A DNA stretch of 64,000 bases from Weeksellaceae bacterium TAE3-ERU29. Its GTDB lineage: Bacteria > Bacteroidota > Bacteroidia > Flavobacteriales > Weeksellaceae. Of the stretch, positions 45,968 through 61,486 are shown piece after piece. The notes under the pieces are model-generated. The model searched no databases and was not told where the DNA came from. It was given only the letters and a program-made list of their open reading frames with translations. The stretch is from assembly GCA_019218445.1 (NCBI GenBank), contig JAHUUM010000005.1, positions 62,001 to 126,000 on the forward strand, given 5' to 3'. The translations under genes and the position numbers were made by a program. The first letter of the stretch is position 1. Each line of letters opens with the position of its first letter.

Positions 45968-47533
45968 TTATCTTGGGTTAGGTTCAAACCCTGCCTTTAT
46001 CACATTTTGAGGTATTTGAATAGCTCTTCTCGGATCATCTACTTTTAAGAAATCCTTATGTTCTACAATTACAGATCCATTTGTTCCTAATAAACGTCTA
46101 GAAATTTCTATTCCGTAACGTTTAATGTCAAACCAACGTAATCCTTCGTGTAATGTTAACACTCTTCTACACTGCAACACTGCATGTATTAAGTTCTCTT
46201 GTGTACCTTTCTCTACTGTAAATTTAGGATGTAACATTTTTTTCTGTGTTGGTTGATCATAAGTATAATATGGCATATTATTATAGAAGTTATTGATACT
46301 TTCTACTGTTACATTTTCTGAAACTTTACAGAAGTTTTTTGCCCAAAGATTTAAATCTGATGCCGCTTCATTATACTTTTTCTGCATTACTCTTGCTTCA
46401 GCTCTTACTAATAATGTTTCGTCTGTTGTAAACATAACTTCTCCTGTATGTGCGAAACCTATTCCTGCTACCGGATCTGTATATTCAAAAAACTCCGGTA
46501 TATTAAAGAAAGTAGTATTATTATATGGAGCTACCGCAGTAAATATACCTAAATGATAATTAGTTCCACCTGCTCCATAAAATGTATTTACTTTTATAGT
46601 CTCAGTCTCTGCCGGTAAAGCATGATGATGAAATCTAATATTTCTTCTACCATTCCAATAAAATCTTCTTGATCTTAGGGAATTCATGTCATTTACCATC
46701 AAATTAGCTATTCTTTTACTACTTACATATTCTCTTGGAACCTCATCATATTGCTCATAATTTCCTGAGCCTAAATCTGCCCAATCTTTAAGAACTGCAG
46801 AAGGGTTATCTCCTAATACAACTGTTGCATATTGCTCTGCTTTATCCCATTTTCCATAGTATAAGTAAAACCTTGCGGCAAACGCATTAGCTGCCTTTTT
46901 ATTAAAATGAAATTTAGGTTGTTGATATAGTTTATCATTTATTAAAGGAAGCCCTGCTAATAAATCTCTTTCTATCTTTTCATAAACGGCTGCCACACTT
47001 TCTCTTTTATAAGTAGGTTCTAATGTTTTCTCAGAATCTTCCATATAAGTAATACCTAAATCTGTTTTACTTGTAGCATCATTATAATGTTTTGCAAAAA
47101 CATTTACTAATACAAAATGTGCATAAGCTCTAGCTACTAATGCCTCTCCTTTCTCCGCTGATAAATCTTCTTTACCTTCAAGTTCAGTTATAGCACTTAA
47201 TGCAGCATTTGCATTAGCAATCGCTTCATACATTCCTCCCCACAAATACTCAGGAGTATCTTGATCTGTACCATTAACATCTTGCCAATAGAACATATTG
47301 TAATCATCATTATCCCAATCTACATTATCTCCTAAATCATCAATATTATCAGAAGACAGCTCCGTTAATAGTGCAAATGAGCTTCTGCTATAAGCAGATA
47401 CTAAAATTTTTCCTATTTTTTCTTTAGAATCTAATTGAGTTCTTCTATCAGGATTCTGATCTAAGAAATCATTACAAGAAGTAACTAATACTGCTAATAG
47501 AAAAAATGTTATTTTTATATATTTATTTTTCAT
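45968..47533 (-). CDS. SusD/RagB-family nutrient-binding lipoprotein
   Basis: 521 residues with lipobox TSC (Cys20) followed by NDFLDQNPDRRTQLDS, the typical SusD beginning. TPR-like helices fill the first half (EALVARAYAHFVLVNVFAKHY, about 130-150) and the C-terminal part contains GLRWFDIKRYG (about 468-478), the conserved SusD end. It forms the lid over the SusC channel. It follows the susC-like gene by 17 bp. Confidence 0.94.
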   Translation of the reverse strand: MKNKYIKITFFLLAVLVTSCNDFLDQNPDRRTQLDSKEKIGKILVSAYSRSSFALLTELSSDNIDDLGDNVDWDNDDYNMFYWQDVNGTDQDTPEYLWGGMYEAIANANAALSAITELEGKEDLSAEKGEALVARAYAHFVLVNVFAKHYNDATSKTDLGITYMEDSEKTLEPTYKRESVAAVYEKIERDLLAGLPLINDKLYQQPKFHFNKKAANAFAARFYLYYGKWDKAEQYATVVLGDNPSAVLKDWADLGSGNYEQYDEVPREYVSSKRIANLMVNDMNSLRSRRFYWNGRRNIRFHHHALPAETETIKVNTFYGAGGTNYHLGIFTAVAPYNNTTFFNIPEFFEYTDPVAGIGFAHTGEVMFTTDETLLVRAEARVMQKKYNEAASDLNLWAKNFCKVSENVTVESINNFYNNMPYYTYDQPTQKKMLHPKFTVEKGTQENLIHAVLQCRRVLTLHEGLRWFDIKRYGIEISRRLLGTNGSVIVEHKDFLKVDDPRRAIQIPQNVIKAGFEPNPR

Positions 47534-47550
47534 ATTTTTTATTTATTTTA

Positions 47551-50500
47551 TTATAGTCCTACTCTTAAAGTAAAAGTAAATTGTTTAGCCATAGGTACGG
47601 CTACACCTCCTGAATTAAAGAACTCAGGGTCCTGACCGTTCAATTTTTTATCTGCATATAATAAGAATAAGTTTGTTGCTTGTACTCTTAATGATAAATG
47701 TTTCAACTTAAATCTTTCTAATATAGGCTTTTGAAAATCATACCCTAAGGAAACTTCTTTTAATCTAATAAAATCTCCTTTTGCTACTCTTTCTGTTGAA
47801 TAGTCATAAGCGTTATATCCTCTTCCTAATCTTGGGGTGTTATTATTCTGACGAAGAATAGATATTATAGGAATATTTGTAACTTTCTCATCTCCTGCTT
47901 TTACCCATCTATTCTTAAATTCTCTTGGCATAGCATCTAACTCAGAATAACTACTTCTAAAGAACGGATCCAATCTCACTACATTTCCGAATGAATAAGT
48001 TAAGAATACATTCAGTTTAAATCCTTTGTATCCAAAAATGTTACCTATACTTCCTATATCTGTAGGGTCTATAGATCCTGAATATTTTAACAAGTCTAAC
48101 TTCTCAATTTCTTGGAAATTATGATCTGCTATTGTTACCACTCCTTCTGTATTTAAAAACTGAGGTAATCCTTCATCATTTAATCCTATAAACGGAATAG
48201 AAAAAAGTCCTCTTACCGGATAACCCACTTTTGTAAATCCTGAACCGGATACTAATTGAATCAACCTTTTATTATTTTGTAACTTAGTTACCTCGTTTTT
48301 GATATGAGAGTAAATAAAACTTGTTGTCCAAGAGAAATCTTGTGTTTTTATATTTAATGTAGATAATGATAAATCCACTCCACTTGATTTCATTTCAGCT
48401 ACGTTTCCTAATTTTCTTACTACACCACCAATTCCTTGTGTATCAACAGGCCCAATCAAATCGAAGTTATTTCTTCTATACCAATCTACATTTAAGTTTA
48501 TACGATCATTTAAAAATCCTAATTCTGCTCCTAAGTTTAACTCTGTTTTCTTCTCATAAGTCAACTCCGAGTTTTCTAAACCTGCAATATATAAAGCACC
48601 TTCTTGTACATCTGCATCGTGTCTCCAAGGGGTTGCACTTCTAATTACAATCGCAGAGTTTGATGCAGGACCTCTATCTGCTGTTAAACTGTAAGATACT
48701 TTTAATCGTAAGTTAGATAATGTAGGTCTTAAAGGTTCAAAAAATTCTTCATCTTTAACACTCCATAATCCTGCTACATTCCATGTTGGCAACCAACGAG
48801 CTACTCTTGATTTTCCTAACTGGTTAGACCCTTCATAACGAAGTGTTCCGTTTAATGTATATCTATTATCATAAGAGTATGTAGCATTTGCAAAGAAAGC
48901 TAAATTTCTATTGAATGTGTTTTCTATACCATAGTATTGCCCTCCTTCTTCTTTTAATTTTTTAAATATTTTATAATCAAAGAATGGTACTTCACCTCTT
49001 GAGTATTGCAATCCATAACCTCTATTCCATGTATAGTGTCTATCTACTGCTGTAGCTTCCGAACCAAAAAAAGTATTAATTGTATGGATATTGTTTATTT
49101 TAGTATTATACTGTAATGTTCCACGGAAATTATAAGATAAAAATTCATTTAATCCCATTCTATAAATACCTCCTTCCGGAAGAACTATCTCTTTTGGTTG
49201 AAATCTTTTATCAGGGTCATTATATAAATAAGGGTTTCTATCTCTTATAATAGTAGGTTCATCTATTCTATAAGCCATTGCTTGGTTAGAAAACTCTGTG
49301 ATATGATGTTCTGTTTTCGCACTATTGTAGTTAACGGCTCCTAAGAATCCTGCTGTTAATCCTTTAAATATATCCCATGTTAATTCCCCTTGGAATTTAA
49401 GGTTTGCTACATTAACATCCATATAGTTATTATCTAACTCGTGTAAAATATTAAACGGAGCATAGTTTCTTGTATAAAATTCATCTGCATCTAAAACACG
49501 TGATGTATTTAATGCATAAGAATATGGGTTTATATCAAAATCTCTTTTAACTGCACCATTTACAACATCTACATCTCTAGATAACGTTCCGGGAGCTTTT
49601 TGTTTTCTATAAGCTCCTGTACTAATAATATTTAATTTTAAATCATCAAGAATTTTATAAGAAGCATTAAAGTTTGCTGTATATCTATTAACACTACTTG
49701 CTTTAGTCCATCCCGGATCATTCATTAAACTTAATGATGCATAATAAGTTGATTTATTACTACCGGAAGATATACTTACTGAGTGATTTTGCATTAAATT
49801 ATTATTGAATAATCTCTTAAACCAATCTGTATTTCTTCTTTCCGCAGCACGTAAATAAGCTATTTTTGCTTCTTCTGTATTATCAAAAGCAAATGTCTTT
49901 GTATCTAAGTCATATTGATTTAATCCTTGAAACATTTTACCATAAACTCCTACACTTGAACCTCCTGCTAAAGTAGCATAGTTTAACCAACCAGCTCTAT
50001 CTAACTCTTGATAAACATCCATTTGTTCTTGAGAGTTCATTATATTAAAGTTCGCATAATTAGGAATTAACCTATTAGTGTACTCTGCTGTATAGTTAAA
50101 TGAACTAACTCCTGCTCTACCTTTTTTAGTTGTAATTACAATTACACCTGCCATAGCTCTTGCACCATAAATAGAAGTTGCAGAACCATCTTTTAAAATA
50201 TCAAAACTTTCTATATCATCTGAGTTTAATCCGGCAACAGCTGAACTAATTAATGTATTAGGGTCCCCAGATGCTAAATCATCTGCACTTACGTCTACCG
50301 GATCTTCTAAAACAACCCCATCTACTACCCAAAGTGGTTTTGAACTACCTAATATTGAAGTAGCTCCACGTATTCTAATTTTAGGAGCAGAACCAAATGT
50401 TCCGGAAACATTCTGTACAGAAACTCCGGCAGAACGCCCTTCTAAACTTCTACTGACATCAGGTACTCCACCTAATTTGATATCATCAGCATTTAATTTA

Positions 50501-50865
50501 TCTGCGGCTCCTGTAAATAATCGTTTATCTGTTTTAGTAATCCCTGTAGTCACAATTTCTTCTAATTGAACTCCAGACTTTAAAACTATGTTAATTACAG
50601 ATGTCTTTGAGCTAACTTGTTTTTTTTCATTATTAAACCCAATATACTCCACCACTAACTTATCTCCCGGATTTGCTTTAATTTCATACAAACCATTCTC
50701 GTCTGTATAAACTCCTTTATCAGACCCTTCTATATAAACATAAGCGTCTAATAACGGAAAGCCTTTCTCATCCGTAACTTTCCCTGTAATCTCTTTCTGT
50801 TGTGCTTGCAGTAAACTTACTGAACACAAGAAGAAAGAAAAAATCCATAAAATTTTACTCCTCAT
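47551..50865 (-). CDS. SusC/RagA-family TonB-linked outer-membrane transporter
   Basis: 1104 residues: signal peptide (about 1-21), a CarboxypepD_reg-like beta-sandwich (about 23-98, KEITGKVTDEKGFPLLDA), a TonB-box region and plug with KIRIRGATSILGSSKPLWVVDGV (about 162-184) and SFDILKDGSATSIYGARAMAGVIVITTKKG (around 220-250), then a 22-strand barrel ending FTFTLRVGL. It imports a large ligand using TonB energy together with the SusD-like lid. It is the first gene of a four-gene operon; the accessory metallohydrolase and the lack of glycosidases point to peptides or a chelate rather than a glycan. Confidence 0.95.
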   Translation of the reverse strand: MRSKILWIFSFFLCSVSLLQAQQKEITGKVTDEKGFPLLDAYVYIEGSDKGVYTDENGLYEIKANPGDKLVVEYIGFNNEKKQVSSKTSVINIVLKSGVQLEEIVTTGITKTDKRLFTGAADKLNADDIKLGGVPDVSRSLEGRSAGVSVQNVSGTFGSAPKIRIRGATSILGSSKPLWVVDGVVLEDPVDVSADDLASGDPNTLISSAVAGLNSDDIESFDILKDGSATSIYGARAMAGVIVITTKKGRAGVSSFNYTAEYTNRLIPNYANFNIMNSQEQMDVYQELDRAGWLNYATLAGGSSVGVYGKMFQGLNQYDLDTKTFAFDNTEEAKIAYLRAAERRNTDWFKRLFNNNLMQNHSVSISSGSNKSTYYASLSLMNDPGWTKASSVNRYTANFNASYKILDDLKLNIISTGAYRKQKAPGTLSRDVDVVNGAVKRDFDINPYSYALNTSRVLDADEFYTRNYAPFNILHELDNNYMDVNVANLKFQGELTWDIFKGLTAGFLGAVNYNSAKTEHHITEFSNQAMAYRIDEPTIIRDRNPYLYNDPDKRFQPKEIVLPEGGIYRMGLNEFLSYNFRGTLQYNTKINNIHTINTFFGSEATAVDRHYTWNRGYGLQYSRGEVPFFDYKIFKKLKEEGGQYYGIENTFNRNLAFFANATYSYDNRYTLNGTLRYEGSNQLGKSRVARWLPTWNVAGLWSVKDEEFFEPLRPTLSNLRLKVSYSLTADRGPASNSAIVIRSATPWRHDADVQEGALYIAGLENSELTYEKKTELNLGAELGFLNDRINLNVDWYRRNNFDLIGPVDTQGIGGVVRKLGNVAEMKSSGVDLSLSTLNIKTQDFSWTTSFIYSHIKNEVTKLQNNKRLIQLVSGSGFTKVGYPVRGLFSIPFIGLNDEGLPQFLNTEGVVTIADHNFQEIEKLDLLKYSGSIDPTDIGSIGNIFGYKGFKLNVFLTYSFGNVVRLDPFFRSSYSELDAMPREFKNRWVKAGDEKVTNIPIISILRQNNNTPRLGRGYNAYDYSTERVAKGDFIRLKEVSLGYDFQKPILERFKLKHLSLRVQATNLFLLYADKKLNGQDPEFFNSGGVAVPMAKQFTFTLRVGL

Positions 50866-52086: not shown

Positions 52087-53403
52087 TTAATTACTTAAAT
52101 CTACAAACTCAGAAACTCTACTTCCTGTTTTTATCACTTTATTATTTTTATCCACTAATATAAAAGTAGGCGTCCCATTTATTCCGAACTCTTTTATTAC
52201 CGGACTATCCCATTTCAATAAATCACTGTAATTATACCATCCTGCATCTTTTACCCATTCTTCGTAATCATTTTTATTTAAATCTACAGCAAATGCAACA
52301 ATCTCTCCACCTGACTTTTTAAAACCTTTATAAAACTCTTTTACAAAAGGCATTTCTCTTTTGCAGTGTCCACACCATGAACCCCAGAATAATATCAACT
52401 TTTTATCGGCTTTAATATCATATAGACTCTTTTTACCTTTTACCGCTTTATCGAAAACAATATTAGGAACTTTTTTTCCTACTTGTATATTCTTATCTCC
52501 TTGTAATAATTGCTTCAACTCCGGAGTGATTTCACAAGTTAAAGATTCAGCTCTACTTTTATATTCTTTAGCTACATCCTTAAAGTTACTTCCTTGCAAC
52601 ATATTTATAACAGTAAGTAGTATAGACTGAGCTCTAGCGGTCTCCTCTCCTACTTTATCCAAAAGCTGATCTACGGAACTTTTTAAATTTTCTTTTGCTC
52701 CTTCTAATGTCTGAGCTCCTTTTACAGAGTTAGACAAATATTGTGTAACAAACGGTTGTAAAAATCCAAAAGACTCCATTTCTATACCATCATTTGCCAA
52801 ATGATTTAAAATCTCTTTTTTTACTTCCTCAGGTTTTGTACTATTTGCATAAGTATCCAAAAGTTGCTGAGTATTTAAATAATAATTTAAATTACTGTTT
52901 TTTATCTCAACAGGCTTAAGATTATTTATTCTTTGTTTTTCCTTTACTATTGCCTCATAAAAAGGTTGTCCTGAATTATAAAAGCTCTCTAAAGCAGATA
53001 ACATATTATCTCTTATATCTAAATAAGCCTTGTACTCATTATATTTTGCTAATGCCTGGTTTACTTCTCCCTTTTTAAAATCTATCTTTTTAATAGGATC
53101 ATTTACATTTAAAGTGAAATCTATATCAGAGTTATCACTTATTAACTGATAAGCGTTATTTCCCAATTCTATATGCATTAAACCATTATAAGCAAAAGGG
53201 ACTTTATACATGAACTTTCCATTTTTATCTGTTTCTACTTTAGTTAAAAACTTTATTATGCCGTTATCATAAACTCTTAAGATAACCGGTTTTTGCTCAT
53301 AGTTTTTTAATTCACCTGCAACATTAAACTGTGCTTGTCCCATAAAAGAGACTAACAAAACAGCTGCTAAAAATATTCTTCTCATTCTTTTTAATTTTTG
53401 CAT
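52087..53403 (-). CDS. TlpA-family thiol-disulfide oxidoreductase with DUF4369-like N-terminus
   Basis: 438 residues. Signal peptide ends MGQAQ (about 24); an N-terminal beta domain (about 25-110) resembles DUF4369, followed by a helical middle. The thioredoxin domain (about 300-430) has the redox site WGSWCGHCKREMPF (CxxC) and cis-Pro in GTPTFILVD. It reduces or oxidises envelope disulfides and may be tethered to a partner. The second Met (MRRIFLAAV) is an equally plausible start. It is often found near SusC/SusD sets in Bacteroidota. Confidence 0.88.
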   Translation of the reverse strand: MQKLKRMRRIFLAAVLLVSFMGQAQFNVAGELKNYEQKPVILRVYDNGIIKFLTKVETDKNGKFMYKVPFAYNGLMHIELGNNAYQLISDNSDIDFTLNVNDPIKKIDFKKGEVNQALAKYNEYKAYLDIRDNMLSALESFYNSGQPFYEAIVKEKQRINNLKPVEIKNSNLNYYLNTQQLLDTYANSTKPEEVKKEILNHLANDGIEMESFGFLQPFVTQYLSNSVKGAQTLEGAKENLKSSVDQLLDKVGEETARAQSILLTVINMLQGSNFKDVAKEYKSRAESLTCEITPELKQLLQGDKNIQVGKKVPNIVFDKAVKGKKSLYDIKADKKLILFWGSWCGHCKREMPFVKEFYKGFKKSGGEIVAFAVDLNKNDYEEWVKDAGWYNYSDLLKWDSPVIKEFGINGTPTFILVDKNNKVIKTGSRVSEFVDLSN

Positions 53404-53417
53404 GAAAGATATTACAA

Positions 53418-53448
53418 AAAAAGCACCATCTAACAGATGATGCTTTTT
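53418..53448 (-). terminator. Terminator after the PID-CTERM-like gene
   Basis: AAAAAGCACCATCT and AGATGATGCTTTTT pair with one wobble and a 3-base loop, with T/A runs on both sides. Confidence 0.88.
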
Positions 53449-53468: not shown

Positions 53469-53675
53469 TTATGCTTTTTTTAAACTTAACTTTTTATATG
53501 CTATTACACCTACAGTTAATAACACTGCTGCTATAATTAATATAATCTCGTTAGTATCTATTGGTGTTCTATTAGGGTGACCTCCAGGTCCAGGCGCTCC
53601 AGGACCTGATTGAGCTAAACCTAAAAACACATTACTTAACAATAATATCGATAATAATCTTAGTTTATTTTTCAT
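53469..53675 (-). CDS. Small PID-CTERM-like protein with sorting tail
   Basis: 68 residues in three parts: signal peptide (about 1-21, ends LAQ), a Gly/Pro-rich stretch GPGAPGPGGHPNR, then the motif TPID directly before a hydrophobic helix (about 42-60) and a basic end KKLSLKKA. This tripartite tail (motif, helix, basic cluster) is the logic of PEP-CTERM-like sorting signals, and the PID motif matches the PID-CTERM type I recall from Flavobacteriia. With so little mature protein its role is unknown. It follows the T9SS cargo gene by 12 bp and shares its transcript. Confidence 0.7.
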   Translation of the reverse strand: MKNKLRLLSILLLSNVFLGLAQSGPGAPGPGGHPNRTPIDTNEIILIIAAVLLTVGVIAYKKLSLKKA

Positions 53676-53687
53676 AATTTATAATTT

Positions 53688-55691
53688 TTATTTTATAATC
53701 TTTTTAGTTACAACTTTTCCGTTATCTCCAACGATTTTAATTATATATACAGATGCATTTCCTACAACCGGTACTATATAATCATTAAAAGTGTTTACTC
53801 CTTTATCTACATTAATTAACTGACCGGAAATACTATAAACAAATACATCAGCTCTTTGCATTTCTTTATCAAATCTAACTTTATAAGTATTTTGATCTTT
53901 AAATACTACAGTTGTATCTGCATACTCTTCTGTTATATCTTTAGTAACTTCTTGTGTAGGAAGTGCTGCCCAATATAATATAAATCTATCTTTATCTGTT
54001 CCGTTTATATTAAAAGTATATGAGAAATTCTCATCTATCTTTATAACTTTTCCTTCTTTTTTATCTTCAAAATAAAAACTGTTTTTATTATTTAATAAGT
54101 TTTTATTCAATCTTGCTTTAAATGTATATTCTCCCTTTCCATTTTGGAATACTAAATGTATAGGTTTTGCAATATACTTATCTTCATTTACACCGTTAAT
54201 ATAAGTTTTATTTTTAGCAAAAGCTTCATTTACTGTACCATTCTCATTTTCTTGTAATGTATAAATACCTGTCAATTCATCATTCAATGTATGATCGTAA
54301 ATTTCCTTTCCTTTTGCCTCAACCGGTAATGCTTCATAAACATTAGATGCAACTACATAAGTTTTCACACCTGTAAAATTATTATTGGCATCATACAAAT
54401 CTAAACCTACTTGTTTTATTTCTGCTCTTTGTGTATTAGATTTAGCGAAGACTGAATTAATAAATGCCCCTTGAGCTGTTGCAGGCTTATTAAAAGTTTT
54501 CATAGCATCATCAAATGTAAAAGTAACATTTTCAGGCATAGAATTATTCATTTTAACTGCAAAAGTTTGGAATGGGGCAACAAAACCTAAATTCTCGTCT
54601 CCAGCTCCTTGTCCAGTCATAGCTCTAAATTCCCCCCCATAAGAACCTGAAACATTACTTCCTACTTCATTCGTATCAACATTATAATCTTGATGTCCAT
54701 ATTGTACTAAAGCATCTAAATTATCCCAAAACTGTGAGTTTGCAGTAGAACTTGCAATATTAATATTCGAAGTATATGGATTGCCTAAATTATATACTCT
54801 CAATCCAAAATCAGTAGTTTCAACACCATTACTATTAACATCGGTATAATAATTAGCCCAACCTGCAGGTAAAGCTGTAGCAAAGTCTATAATATATGAA
54901 CCATAAGCTTCTCCATACTCATTTACTCCTATATTTTTATTATCTAATACAGATGCTGAAGTATCACCAACTCTTTTATATTTGTTTTCAAGTGTATTAT
55001 ATCTTTTTAAAGTAACAGAAACTTCATTTTTCACAGGAGTTCCTTTAATTGTCTTTGGATTACTTAAATCTAACTTACCTGCTTTAGATAAATCACTGTT
55101 ATTTATAGCATAATATTTACCATTTGCTTCTTCTGTTCCAAATTGATAATTACTTGCCAAATGAGTATATTGATATTTATCATTGTCCCAAATAAATAAT
55201 GCATTATTAGGAACTCTATTACCATCCCATCCATAAGCACCAGAAGTATACCCTCCAAAAGCTTGATTCGCATTAAGCGATAAATCCTCAACTATATTCT
55301 GTGCTGTTACATTTGTATAAGGGATAGAAATTGGATAAAAGTTGAATCCACTTTTAAACTTTAAGGTAGATGCTATCTGCCCAACATTTACATTAGTTAC
55401 TCCATTATTAATAATTAACTGTCCATAATTACCTGTACTTGGCAATTCATTAACAAAATTATCTCCAGTAGAGTTTTCATTAGTTAGTTTTTCTGTAATT
55501 TTAATATTACCTTCATTGGATACTTTCTTAGATGTATCCGTATAATTAGCGACTTTCATTTCGCCTCCTACATAAAGTGTAGTTCCTGTTTTCACTTTTA
55601 CGCCTGTATTACTTGCAACACTCATTGTGGCTTGGGCTTGTAGCGAAAGTACTGCAAAAACACTTGATAATAAAAATAGATGTTTTTTCAT
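53688..55691 (-). CDS. Large secreted protein with C-terminal T9SS (Por) sorting domain
   Basis: 667 residues. Signal peptide ends SLQAQA (about 20); the bulk is beta-rich, Asn/Thr-rich and Cys-free, as for an adhesin or surface layer. The last 90 residues form a T9SS sorting domain (DVFVYSISGQLINVDKG... SVYIIKIVGDNGKVVTKKIIK). The type IX system exports it through the outer membrane and cleaves the domain. No catalytic domain is recognisable. A -7 box lies 36 bp upstream, and the small PID-CTERM-like gene follows. Confidence 0.82.
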   Translation of the reverse strand: MKKHLFLLSSVFAVLSLQAQATMSVASNTGVKVKTGTTLYVGGEMKVANYTDTSKKVSNEGNIKITEKLTNENSTGDNFVNELPSTGNYGQLIINNGVTNVNVGQIASTLKFKSGFNFYPISIPYTNVTAQNIVEDLSLNANQAFGGYTSGAYGWDGNRVPNNALFIWDNDKYQYTHLASNYQFGTEEANGKYYAINNSDLSKAGKLDLSNPKTIKGTPVKNEVSVTLKRYNTLENKYKRVGDTSASVLDNKNIGVNEYGEAYGSYIIDFATALPAGWANYYTDVNSNGVETTDFGLRVYNLGNPYTSNINIASSTANSQFWDNLDALVQYGHQDYNVDTNEVGSNVSGSYGGEFRAMTGQGAGDENLGFVAPFQTFAVKMNNSMPENVTFTFDDAMKTFNKPATAQGAFINSVFAKSNTQRAEIKQVGLDLYDANNNFTGVKTYVVASNVYEALPVEAKGKEIYDHTLNDELTGIYTLQENENGTVNEAFAKNKTYINGVNEDKYIAKPIHLVFQNGKGEYTFKARLNKNLLNNKNSFYFEDKKEGKVIKIDENFSYTFNINGTDKDRFILYWAALPTQEVTKDITEEYADTTVVFKDQNTYKVRFDKEMQRADVFVYSISGQLINVDKGVNTFNDYIVPVVGNASVYIIKIVGDNGKVVTKKIIK

Positions 55692-60022: not shown

Positions 60023-60682
60023 TTAGAATTGGTATCCAACTCCTACAGAGAATACTCCGTTTTTGAAGTCATTATTTTCTGATATTTTAAGATTTTTAAC
60101 TTCGTTATTATCTTTATCAAATACATTAGTAAATCCTAAAGCATAACGAGCATCAATAGTGAATCCCATCGGTAATTTATATCCGGCACCTACTACTGCT
60201 GAAAAATCAACTTTACCCATGTTTTCATTGAATTTATCATTCTTAGCAGTTCCGCCAACTCCTAATAAGTTAGCTGATGTTGTTGTTGTTGCCCCTGTTA
60301 AGAAACCTACTTGAGGTCCTGCTTGGATACTAAACCCATCTGCAATATAAAATTTAGCTAATACAGGAACATTAATGTATTGAGCTTTCAACTCTCTACT
60401 TCCTCCTGCTATACCTGCGAAATTACCTTCCCATTTAGCTCCTTGTACTGAGTAATTCACCTCCGGTTGAATAGAGAATCTTTCGTTTACCGGTATTTCT
60501 ACAAAAAGACCTACGTTAAATCCACTCATTCCTTTAGTATTCAAATCTTTTGCAGCATCTCCTCTTAAAGTAGAATAATTATATCCTGCTTTAGCTCCAA
60601 TTTGTAAACTTTCCATAGACTGTGCATTCAAACCTACAATTCCTGCAAATGCAACTGCTGCTGATAAAACTAACTTTTTCAT
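60023..60682 (-). CDS. Outer-membrane beta-barrel protein (porin family)
   Basis: 219 residues with a signal peptide ending GLNAQ (about 21), GAKAGYNYSTLRGD (about 32-45) and the C-terminal VFSVGVGYQF. Alternating hydrophobic strands indicate an 8-stranded barrel of the OmpW/PorT-like class. Close paralogue of the gene at 60854 (same start and end motifs, SIQPEVNYSxQGA). Function unspecified. Confidence 0.88.
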   Translation of the reverse strand: MKKLVLSAAVAFAGIVGLNAQSMESLQIGAKAGYNYSTLRGDAAKDLNTKGMSGFNVGLFVEIPVNERFSIQPEVNYSVQGAKWEGNFAGIAGGSRELKAQYINVPVLAKFYIADGFSIQAGPQVGFLTGATTTTSANLLGVGGTAKNDKFNENMGKVDFSAVVGAGYKLPMGFTIDARYALGFTNVFDKDNNEVKNLKISENNDFKNGVFSVGVGYQF

Positions 60683-60801
60683 TTTTTAATCAATTTTTAT
60701 TTGTTATGAATGATATTAAGCAAACGTTATGCCAAAAGAATAAACACTCATAACTATTTGATTGTTAACAAACATAACTAAATCAGCATTTTTCTAATAA
60801 A

Positions 60802-60831
60802 AAAACACCTTAGCAAGACTAAGGCGTTTTT
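60802..60831 (-). terminator. Terminator of the 60854-61486 porin-like gene
   Basis: AAAACACCTTAG and CTAAGGCGTTTT pair with one mismatch; A run on plus gives T run on minus. Confidence 0.85.
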
Positions 60832-60853
60832 ATATATCTTCTATCTTAATAAT

Positions 60854-61486
60854 TTAAAACTGATATCCTACTCCTAATGAAAATACTCCATTTTTTAAAT
60901 CTGTTTCTTTCGCAGATTTCAAGACTGCTCCTAAACCGTTATCTTCTGTATTTATAATATTATTTAAGCCTAAAGCATATCTCGCATCTAAAGTAATTCC
61001 TATGATAGGAACTTTATAACCTAACCCAAAAACAGCTCCATAATTTAATCCTTTTGTGGTATCTCCGGTTTTCACATCATTCCATAATTTATCAGCTCCT
61101 GATTTATTAAAGTCATACTCTGACCCTGTATTAAAAGACACTTGAGGGCCTACTTGGAAATTAAAACCTTCTACCAAATAATATTTAAATAATACAGGAA
61201 TATTTATGTTCTGAGTTTTAAGCTCATCTCCTTCTTGAAAAACATTACTCGCTCCTTGTGTAGAATAAAGAATTTCCGGTTGAATACTCATTTTTGAAGA
61301 TAAAGGTAACTCTGTAAATATCCCAATATGATACCCGTTTTTTGCCTTTAAATCAAGTTTAGAAGAAGTTTCTCCTCTTAAATTTGAGTAATTATACCCT
61401 CCTCTCACTCCGAATTGAAGGCTTTGTGCATTTGTAAAAGCTATTCCTGCAAAAGCAATAATTACTGATAATACTAAATTCCTCAT
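60854..61486 (-). CDS. Outer-membrane beta-barrel protein, paralogue of the next gene
   Basis: 210 residues with signal peptide ending FTNAQ, then SLQFGVRGGYNYSNLRGE and terminal VFSLGVGYQF. It is a tandem duplicate of 60023-60682, though now quite divergent (a Leu/Lys-rich insert around 45-55). It lies 11 bp after clpX on the same strand, so the two may be co-transcribed. Confidence 0.87.
   Translation of the reverse strand: MRNLVLSVIIAFAGIAFTNAQSLQFGVRGGYNYSNLRGETSSKLDLKAKNGYHIGIFTELPLSSKMSIQPEILYSTQGASNVFQEGDELKTQNINIPVLFKYYLVEGFNFQVGPQVSFNTGSEYDFNKSGADKLWNDVKTGDTTKGLNYGAVFGLGYKVPIIGITLDARYALGLNNIINTEDNGLGAVLKSAKETDLKNGVFSLGVGYQF

Follow-up and report, generated by a model that had tools for sequence, protein, structure and literature searches.

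A T9SS cargo gene and a small PID-type gene at one locus

The window, a 64,000-nucleotide stretch of DNA from Weeksellaceae bacterium TAE3-ERU29, carries on its minus strand a gene for a large T9SS cargo protein directly followed by a gene for a tiny protein with a P-I-D motif (Table 1). The stop codon of the first and the ATG of the second are separated by 12 bp (AAATTATAAATT), and the coordinates, lengths and layout given in an earlier sequence-only reading (667 aa, 12 bp, 68 aa) agree with the ORFs. A pattern scan for promoters and terminators returned nothing above chance and reported no terminator after the small ORF; the hairpin listed in Table 1 was probably missed because its stem pairs into the T-run. 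Spacing and hairpin together point to co-transcription of the two genes. Searches of phage collections with the T9SS protein and of plasmid collections with the small protein gave no match.

Table 1 Features of the T9SS-PID locus (positions in the window)
Feature	Position	Strand	Evidence or remark
Large T9SS cargo ORF, 667 aa	53688..55691	(-)	
Parts of the large protein: signal peptide, beta-rich body outside known families, T9SS type A/C sorting domain at the C-terminus			
T9SS C-terminal sorting domain, ~residues 595-667	53691..53909	(-)	TIGR04183 and Foldseek
Small PID-type protein ORF, 68 aa	53469..53675	(-)	candidate substrate of exosortase XrtF
Small-protein signal peptide (residues 1-21), cleavage predicted before Q22	53613..53675	(-)	sequence reading
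Gly/Pro-rich spacer, residues 22-37	53565..53612	(-)	sequence reading
P-I-D motif, residues 38-40	53556..53564	(-)	P38 and D40 nearly invariant
Membrane helix (44-60) and basic tail KKLSLKKA (61-68)	53472..53546	(-)	sequence reading
Terminator-like hairpin and T-run 3' of the small ORF	53418..53448	(-)	fold -15.9 kcal/mol, z -4.2
TlpA/DUF4369 thioredoxin-like protein	52087..53403	(-)	usual downstream neighbour, not obligate

The TlpA-like gene adjoins the pair in most relatives and lies ~35 kb away in three of them (G001-G003). It is ruled out as an obligate third member, because it moves away within the genus in G001-G003 and persists in genomes from which the pair has been lost. Elsewhere in the window, the protein encoded at 51108-51935 matches BamP in part (NF053692, E=1.4e-19, 70 bits; cut-off 230), contains a weak CarboxypepD_reg-like domain and is perhaps a divergent relative of a Bacteroidota BAM-complex subunit. 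A putative SusC/SusD-type-like pair, consisting of a 1104 aa TonB-dependent receptor-like and a 521 aa lipoprotein-like protein, is found at 45968-50865. At 60023-61486, neighbouring genes encode two related outer-membrane beta-barrel-like proteins of 219 and 210 aa, which probably arose by tandem duplication.

The T9SS signal assigned to the large protein in the sequence-only reading is borne out by several lines of evidence. The sorting-domain model TIGR04183 scored 27.2 bits in the genome scan, above its cut-off of 23, and 21.9 bits by hmmscan, slightly below it; the Pfam model Por_Secre_tail (PF18962) is matched by 57 of 60 orthologues. In the AlphaFold model (mean pLDDT 76.7) the C-terminus resembles the C-terminal domains of RemZ and RemA bound to SprA-PorV (Foldseek, 8gl8_D and 8gl6_D, TM-score 0.77-0.79), and T9SS machinery is encoded in the genome (SprA, TIGR04189, 2053 bits). 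The sorting signal is real, as judged from these sequence and model comparisons, and T9SS-dependent secretion of the protein is predicted. Orthologues align along their full length; in the body, no Pfam domain common to the orthologues was found, and a Foldseek search with the model gave no whole-body structural match.

The small protein reads MKNKLRLLSILLLSNVFLGLA/QSGPGAPGPGGHPNRT/PID/TNE/IILIIAAVLLTVGVIAY/KKLSLKKA, that is, in order, a signal peptide, a Gly/Pro spacer, P38-I39-D40, a membrane helix and a basic tail, an organization already proposed in the sequence-only reading and upheld here. A21, the last residue of the predicted signal peptide, is conserved in more than 90% of the orthologues. 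The spacers of orthologues range from 19 to 58 aa, consist of Gly and Pro to about one half and vary in length and composition, whereas the stretch after the motif spans 26-31 aa and P, D and the helix are conserved. The motif had been read as TPID; its P and D proved nearly invariant and the preceding T is not conserved, so that the consensus is P-[IV]-D, with some deviants among the orthologues (VSAN in L165 and L258, VDID in L262). The gene is present in one copy in this genome. Across 22 close pairs, pN/pS is 0.18 and substitutions at codon positions 1, 2 and 3 number 156, 94 and 471, a clear third-position excess. The small ORF is under purifying, protein-level selection and evolves as a protein, which strongly disfavours an untranslated ORF.

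The two genes are paired across Weeksellaceae

Adjacency of a T9SS gene and a PID-type gene, suggested earlier for a survey of other genomes, proved to be conserved. The small ORF lies directly 3' of the T9SS orthologue in all 80 named Weeksellaceae-type loci (Chryseobacterium, Epilithonimonas, Kaistella, Moheibacter, Riemerella, Bergeyella, Empedobacter and others), separated from it by a median of 5 bp (range -1 to 53 bp), and immediately downstream in 25 of the 25 relatives with a large-protein orthologue at E<=1e-10. For the small gene, 59 relatives were searched with the single sequence and with a profile; profile matches with E above ~1e-4, mostly signal peptides of unrelated proteins, were ignored. 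Because the T9SS tail model matches only 9 stretches genome-wide, chance adjacency at 80/80 loci and in 25/25 relatives is excluded. Furthermore, of the 55 proteins whose genes directly precede a PID-type gene, 53 match the tail model; these 55 include unrelated large proteins from second loci and from other families.

A very improbable reading is that the small gene encodes an unrelated small membrane protein of the operon, held next to its neighbour by descent alone. The family retains its gene order around clpX, which would by itself be enough to keep neighbours together, but the pair stays intact while TlpA moves off in G001-G003, PID proteins also follow different T9SS proteins at additional loci and in additional families, and the small gene matches XrtF in its phyletic distribution (see below).

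Several relatives possess two or three T9SS-PID pairs but one XrtF. A second kind of pair in Weeksellaceae combines a larger T9SS protein with a small protein whose spacer is acidic and Gln/Asn-rich, and was located upstream of surface-polysaccharide biosynthesis genes in all eight cases checked (L168, L172, L173, L174, L175, L176, L180, L191). The T9SS partner is not universal, since PID genes of Flavobacterium-type genomes (family f3; L072, L080, L084, L093) lack a T9SS neighbour. At two of these loci (L072 and L084) the PID gene has the same position, flanked by a VOC-family gene on one side and riboflavin-synthase-like genes on the other.

The small gene co-occurs with the exosortase XrtF

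In the small protein, motif, helix and basic tail follow one another as in sortase-like C-terminal signals, and exosortases were therefore sought. The genome encodes XrtF (TIGR04128, 193.8 bits; cut-off 90) with its usual partner right beside it (TIGR04127, 136.7 bits, over cut-off), at a site not linked to that of the pair (C1 versus C45). Residues C90, R131 and H150 of XrtF are invariant in 29 of 29 homologues; the enzyme is intact. No exosortase X was found in this genome, its only exosortase being XrtF, which scores 93.1 bits on the XrtX model, below the cut-off of 170.

TIGR04128 detected XrtF in 43 of the 59 relatives, while the Pfam exosortase model PF09721 is too insensitive for this enzyme (14/59). 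The small gene is present in 42 of the 43 XrtF-positive and in none of the 16 XrtF-negative relatives (Fisher p = 1.5e-13; as relatives share ancestry, Fisher p-values overstate independence), and an exosortase-like processing enzyme, anticipated earlier as something to be found by co-occurrence, thus has a named candidate. The sole XrtF-positive relative without a PID match (G008) is a draft genome that is 79% complete. Three genomes (G007, G025, G026) have neither XrtF nor the pair, yet carry clpX and TlpA side by side, where in their kin the pair sits between these two genes. The ClpX tree, which is poorly resolved, does not unite the three, and this suggests separate joint losses of XrtF and the pair. 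In one of them (G007), three near-identical GIY-YIG-like ORFs were observed in tandem downstream of TlpA (L152:5825-6753).

In F. johnsoniae, deletion of xrtF (Fjoh_1448) or of Fjoh_1449 abolishes zorbs and strongly reduces biofilm, and deletions of porU, porV and porZ resemble those of xrtF and Fjoh_1449 (PMC10936215). The targets of XrtF were stated as not known in a 2025 paper (PMC12188702).

PID genes and exosortase X in the wider Bacteroidia

In a scan of 296 Bacteroidia genomes, 126 of the 129 PID-positive genomes had an XrtF-like match (p=6e-38), a co-occurrence which at class level concerns the XrtF/XrtX-like group rather than XrtF alone, because TIGR04128 also picks up XrtX and other exosortases. 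Moreover, 53 genomes have a PID gene and an XrtF/XrtX-type exosortase gene on one strand, the former at most 400 bp upstream of the latter and never downstream. The two exosortases scanned among these 53 genomes are exosortase X (NF046081), and the small proteins beside those exosortases match the PID_CTERM model NF046080 (32-41 bits; cut-off 26). In one genome (G227) a T9SS protein, a PID protein, XrtX and the XrtX-associated protein are contiguous, all four matched by NCBIfam models, and in two others (G065 and G195) T9SS, PID and exosortase genes are consecutive. The association of T9SS and PID proteins is thus not confined to XrtF.

Two further features were seen at XrtX-type loci. Six of them (L112, L113, L122, L123, L125, L126) encode a protein with a tyrosine-rich, YGYGYGYG-like tail that resembles polysaccharide tyrosine kinases (putative family). 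XrtX-type PID proteins have a conserved two-cysteine motif, C-W-x-P-x-C (mostly CWPPPC), right before P-I-D, which was seen in L113, L115, L116, L122, L126 and L127 and is absent from the small protein of the window.

These observations bear on whether the small protein is cut at all. If it stayed uncut, it might serve as a one-helix inner-membrane adaptor or chaperone for its T9SS partner, in the periplasm or at the T9SS motor, with XrtF merely part of the same surface programme. Strict pairing with a T9SS partner fits such a role, and motif, helix and tail would suit a membrane adaptor too. We nevertheless consider it unlikely: the three elements follow the order of an exosortase signal, its relatives sit immediately before an exosortase gene in 53 genomes and are recognised by a curated protein-sorting model, the small gene is lost jointly with XrtF, and an unstructured, variable spacer is unlike a chaperone.

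The small protein as a candidate substrate of XrtF

We propose, with a probability of roughly 0.65, that the small protein is a dedicated XrtF substrate that works with the T9SS cargo encoded before it. As the pair co-occurs with an enzyme of unknown targets, the small peptide is the best target candidate yet. Judging from sequence and spacing, both proteins would be translated from a single mRNA and routed into the Sec pathway by their signal peptides, and the architecture of the small protein suggests that it would halt in the inner membrane through its C-terminal helix and basic tail. XrtF, as a Cys-Arg-His membrane transpeptidase, would then cut at or just after P-I-D, so that the helix stays behind and the short Gly/Pro peptide is passed to an acceptor. 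This step is modelled on exosortases and archaeosortases, and is supported by the co-occurrence, the direct gene neighbourhood of the XrtX type and the joint loss. The large partner would cross the outer membrane by the T9SS, in keeping with its C-terminal domain and the SprA of the genome. Finally, and this is the least certain of all the steps, the two products may function jointly on the cell surface, probably as part of a structure related to polysaccharide or biofilm, with the sorted peptide as anchor or acceptor for the T9SS partner. A single XrtF copy per genome would serve one to three T9SS-PID pairs.

A more specific version is put forward tentatively: two export routes would build one structure, in that XrtF would join the peptide covalently to an envelope lipid or polysaccharide, where it would be the docking or anchoring partner of the T9SS protein, and XrtX might do likewise across Bacteroidia. 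Cleavage by XrtF could also occur with no anchoring involved, the peptide serving, in released or displayed form, as a signal or matrix component, with the T9SS partner as its receptor or simply co-regulated. A short Gly/Pro peptide of variable sequence, the Flavobacterium-type PID genes without a T9SS neighbour and the position of second-type pairs beside polysaccharide genes would all be compatible with this; it is quite improbable, however, given that adjacency in 80/80 loci is far stricter than co-regulation needs.

A dedicated XrtF substrate acting with its T9SS neighbour would matter in two respects. Biofilm formation and surface colonisation by Flavobacterium johnsoniae depend on XrtF, for which a prime target candidate can now be named: a single small gene in each genome, accompanied by a T9SS partner and lost in a clean pattern. 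Furthermore, the exosortase and T9SS pathways, two sorting systems treated separately so far, would be linked.

Comparison with known systems

Among the closest known systems is PID-CTERM (NF046080), which shares with the window protein the architecture of a tiny secreted protein with P-[IVL]-D, a helix and a basic tail. NF046080 gave no match to the small protein of the window, for which no family was returned at E<=10, and only one of 44 Weeksellaceae forms matches it, weakly (E=0.14); most Weeksellaceae forms have xY after the motif, PID-CTERM has GG. XrtX-type PID genes lie directly upstream of their exosortase, some preceded by T9SS proteins, whereas XrtF of the window genome is unlinked. 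The accessions NF046080, NF046081 and NF046082 (XrtX-associated protein) are consecutive, which makes it very probable that PID-CTERM was connected with XrtX by the NCBI curators; neither 'PID-CTERM' nor XrtX as an exosortase name was found in the literature searched.

XrtF/Fjoh_1448 (TIGR04128) and Fjoh_1449 (TIGR04127), both of which are present and intact in the window genome, have been described without known targets for XrtF (PMC10936215, PMC12188702), and the present locus adds a proposed target class and a T9SS partner. The T9SS type A/C cargos RemA, RemZ and ChiA share a signal peptide and the C-terminal domain fold with the large protein, in a genome that likewise has SprA; unlike them, the large protein has a body with neither a Pfam domain nor a relative of solved structure and is always paired with a small protein.

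PEP-CTERM/EpsH (XrtA) follows the same tripartite signal logic as the PID system and is similarly associated with exopolysaccharide genes. PEP-CTERM proteins are usually sizeable and occur in many copies, whereas the PID signal is borne by a peptide with almost no cargo, which is present in one to three copies and has a T9SS protein as its partner. GlyGly-CTERM/rhombosortase and MYXO-CTERM/myxosortase also involve C-terminal tripartite signals cut by membrane enzymes, as proposed here for PID, but their enzymes, motifs and secretion systems differ. In those parts of the literature naming both exosortase and T9SS that were available, no description of a pairing of this kind was found. The suggestion of an undescribed two-part surface system holds only in part, as PID_CTERM itself already has a model in NCBIfam (NF046080); what is new is the extension of PID to XrtF, an orphan in the literature consulted, and the T9SS partner.
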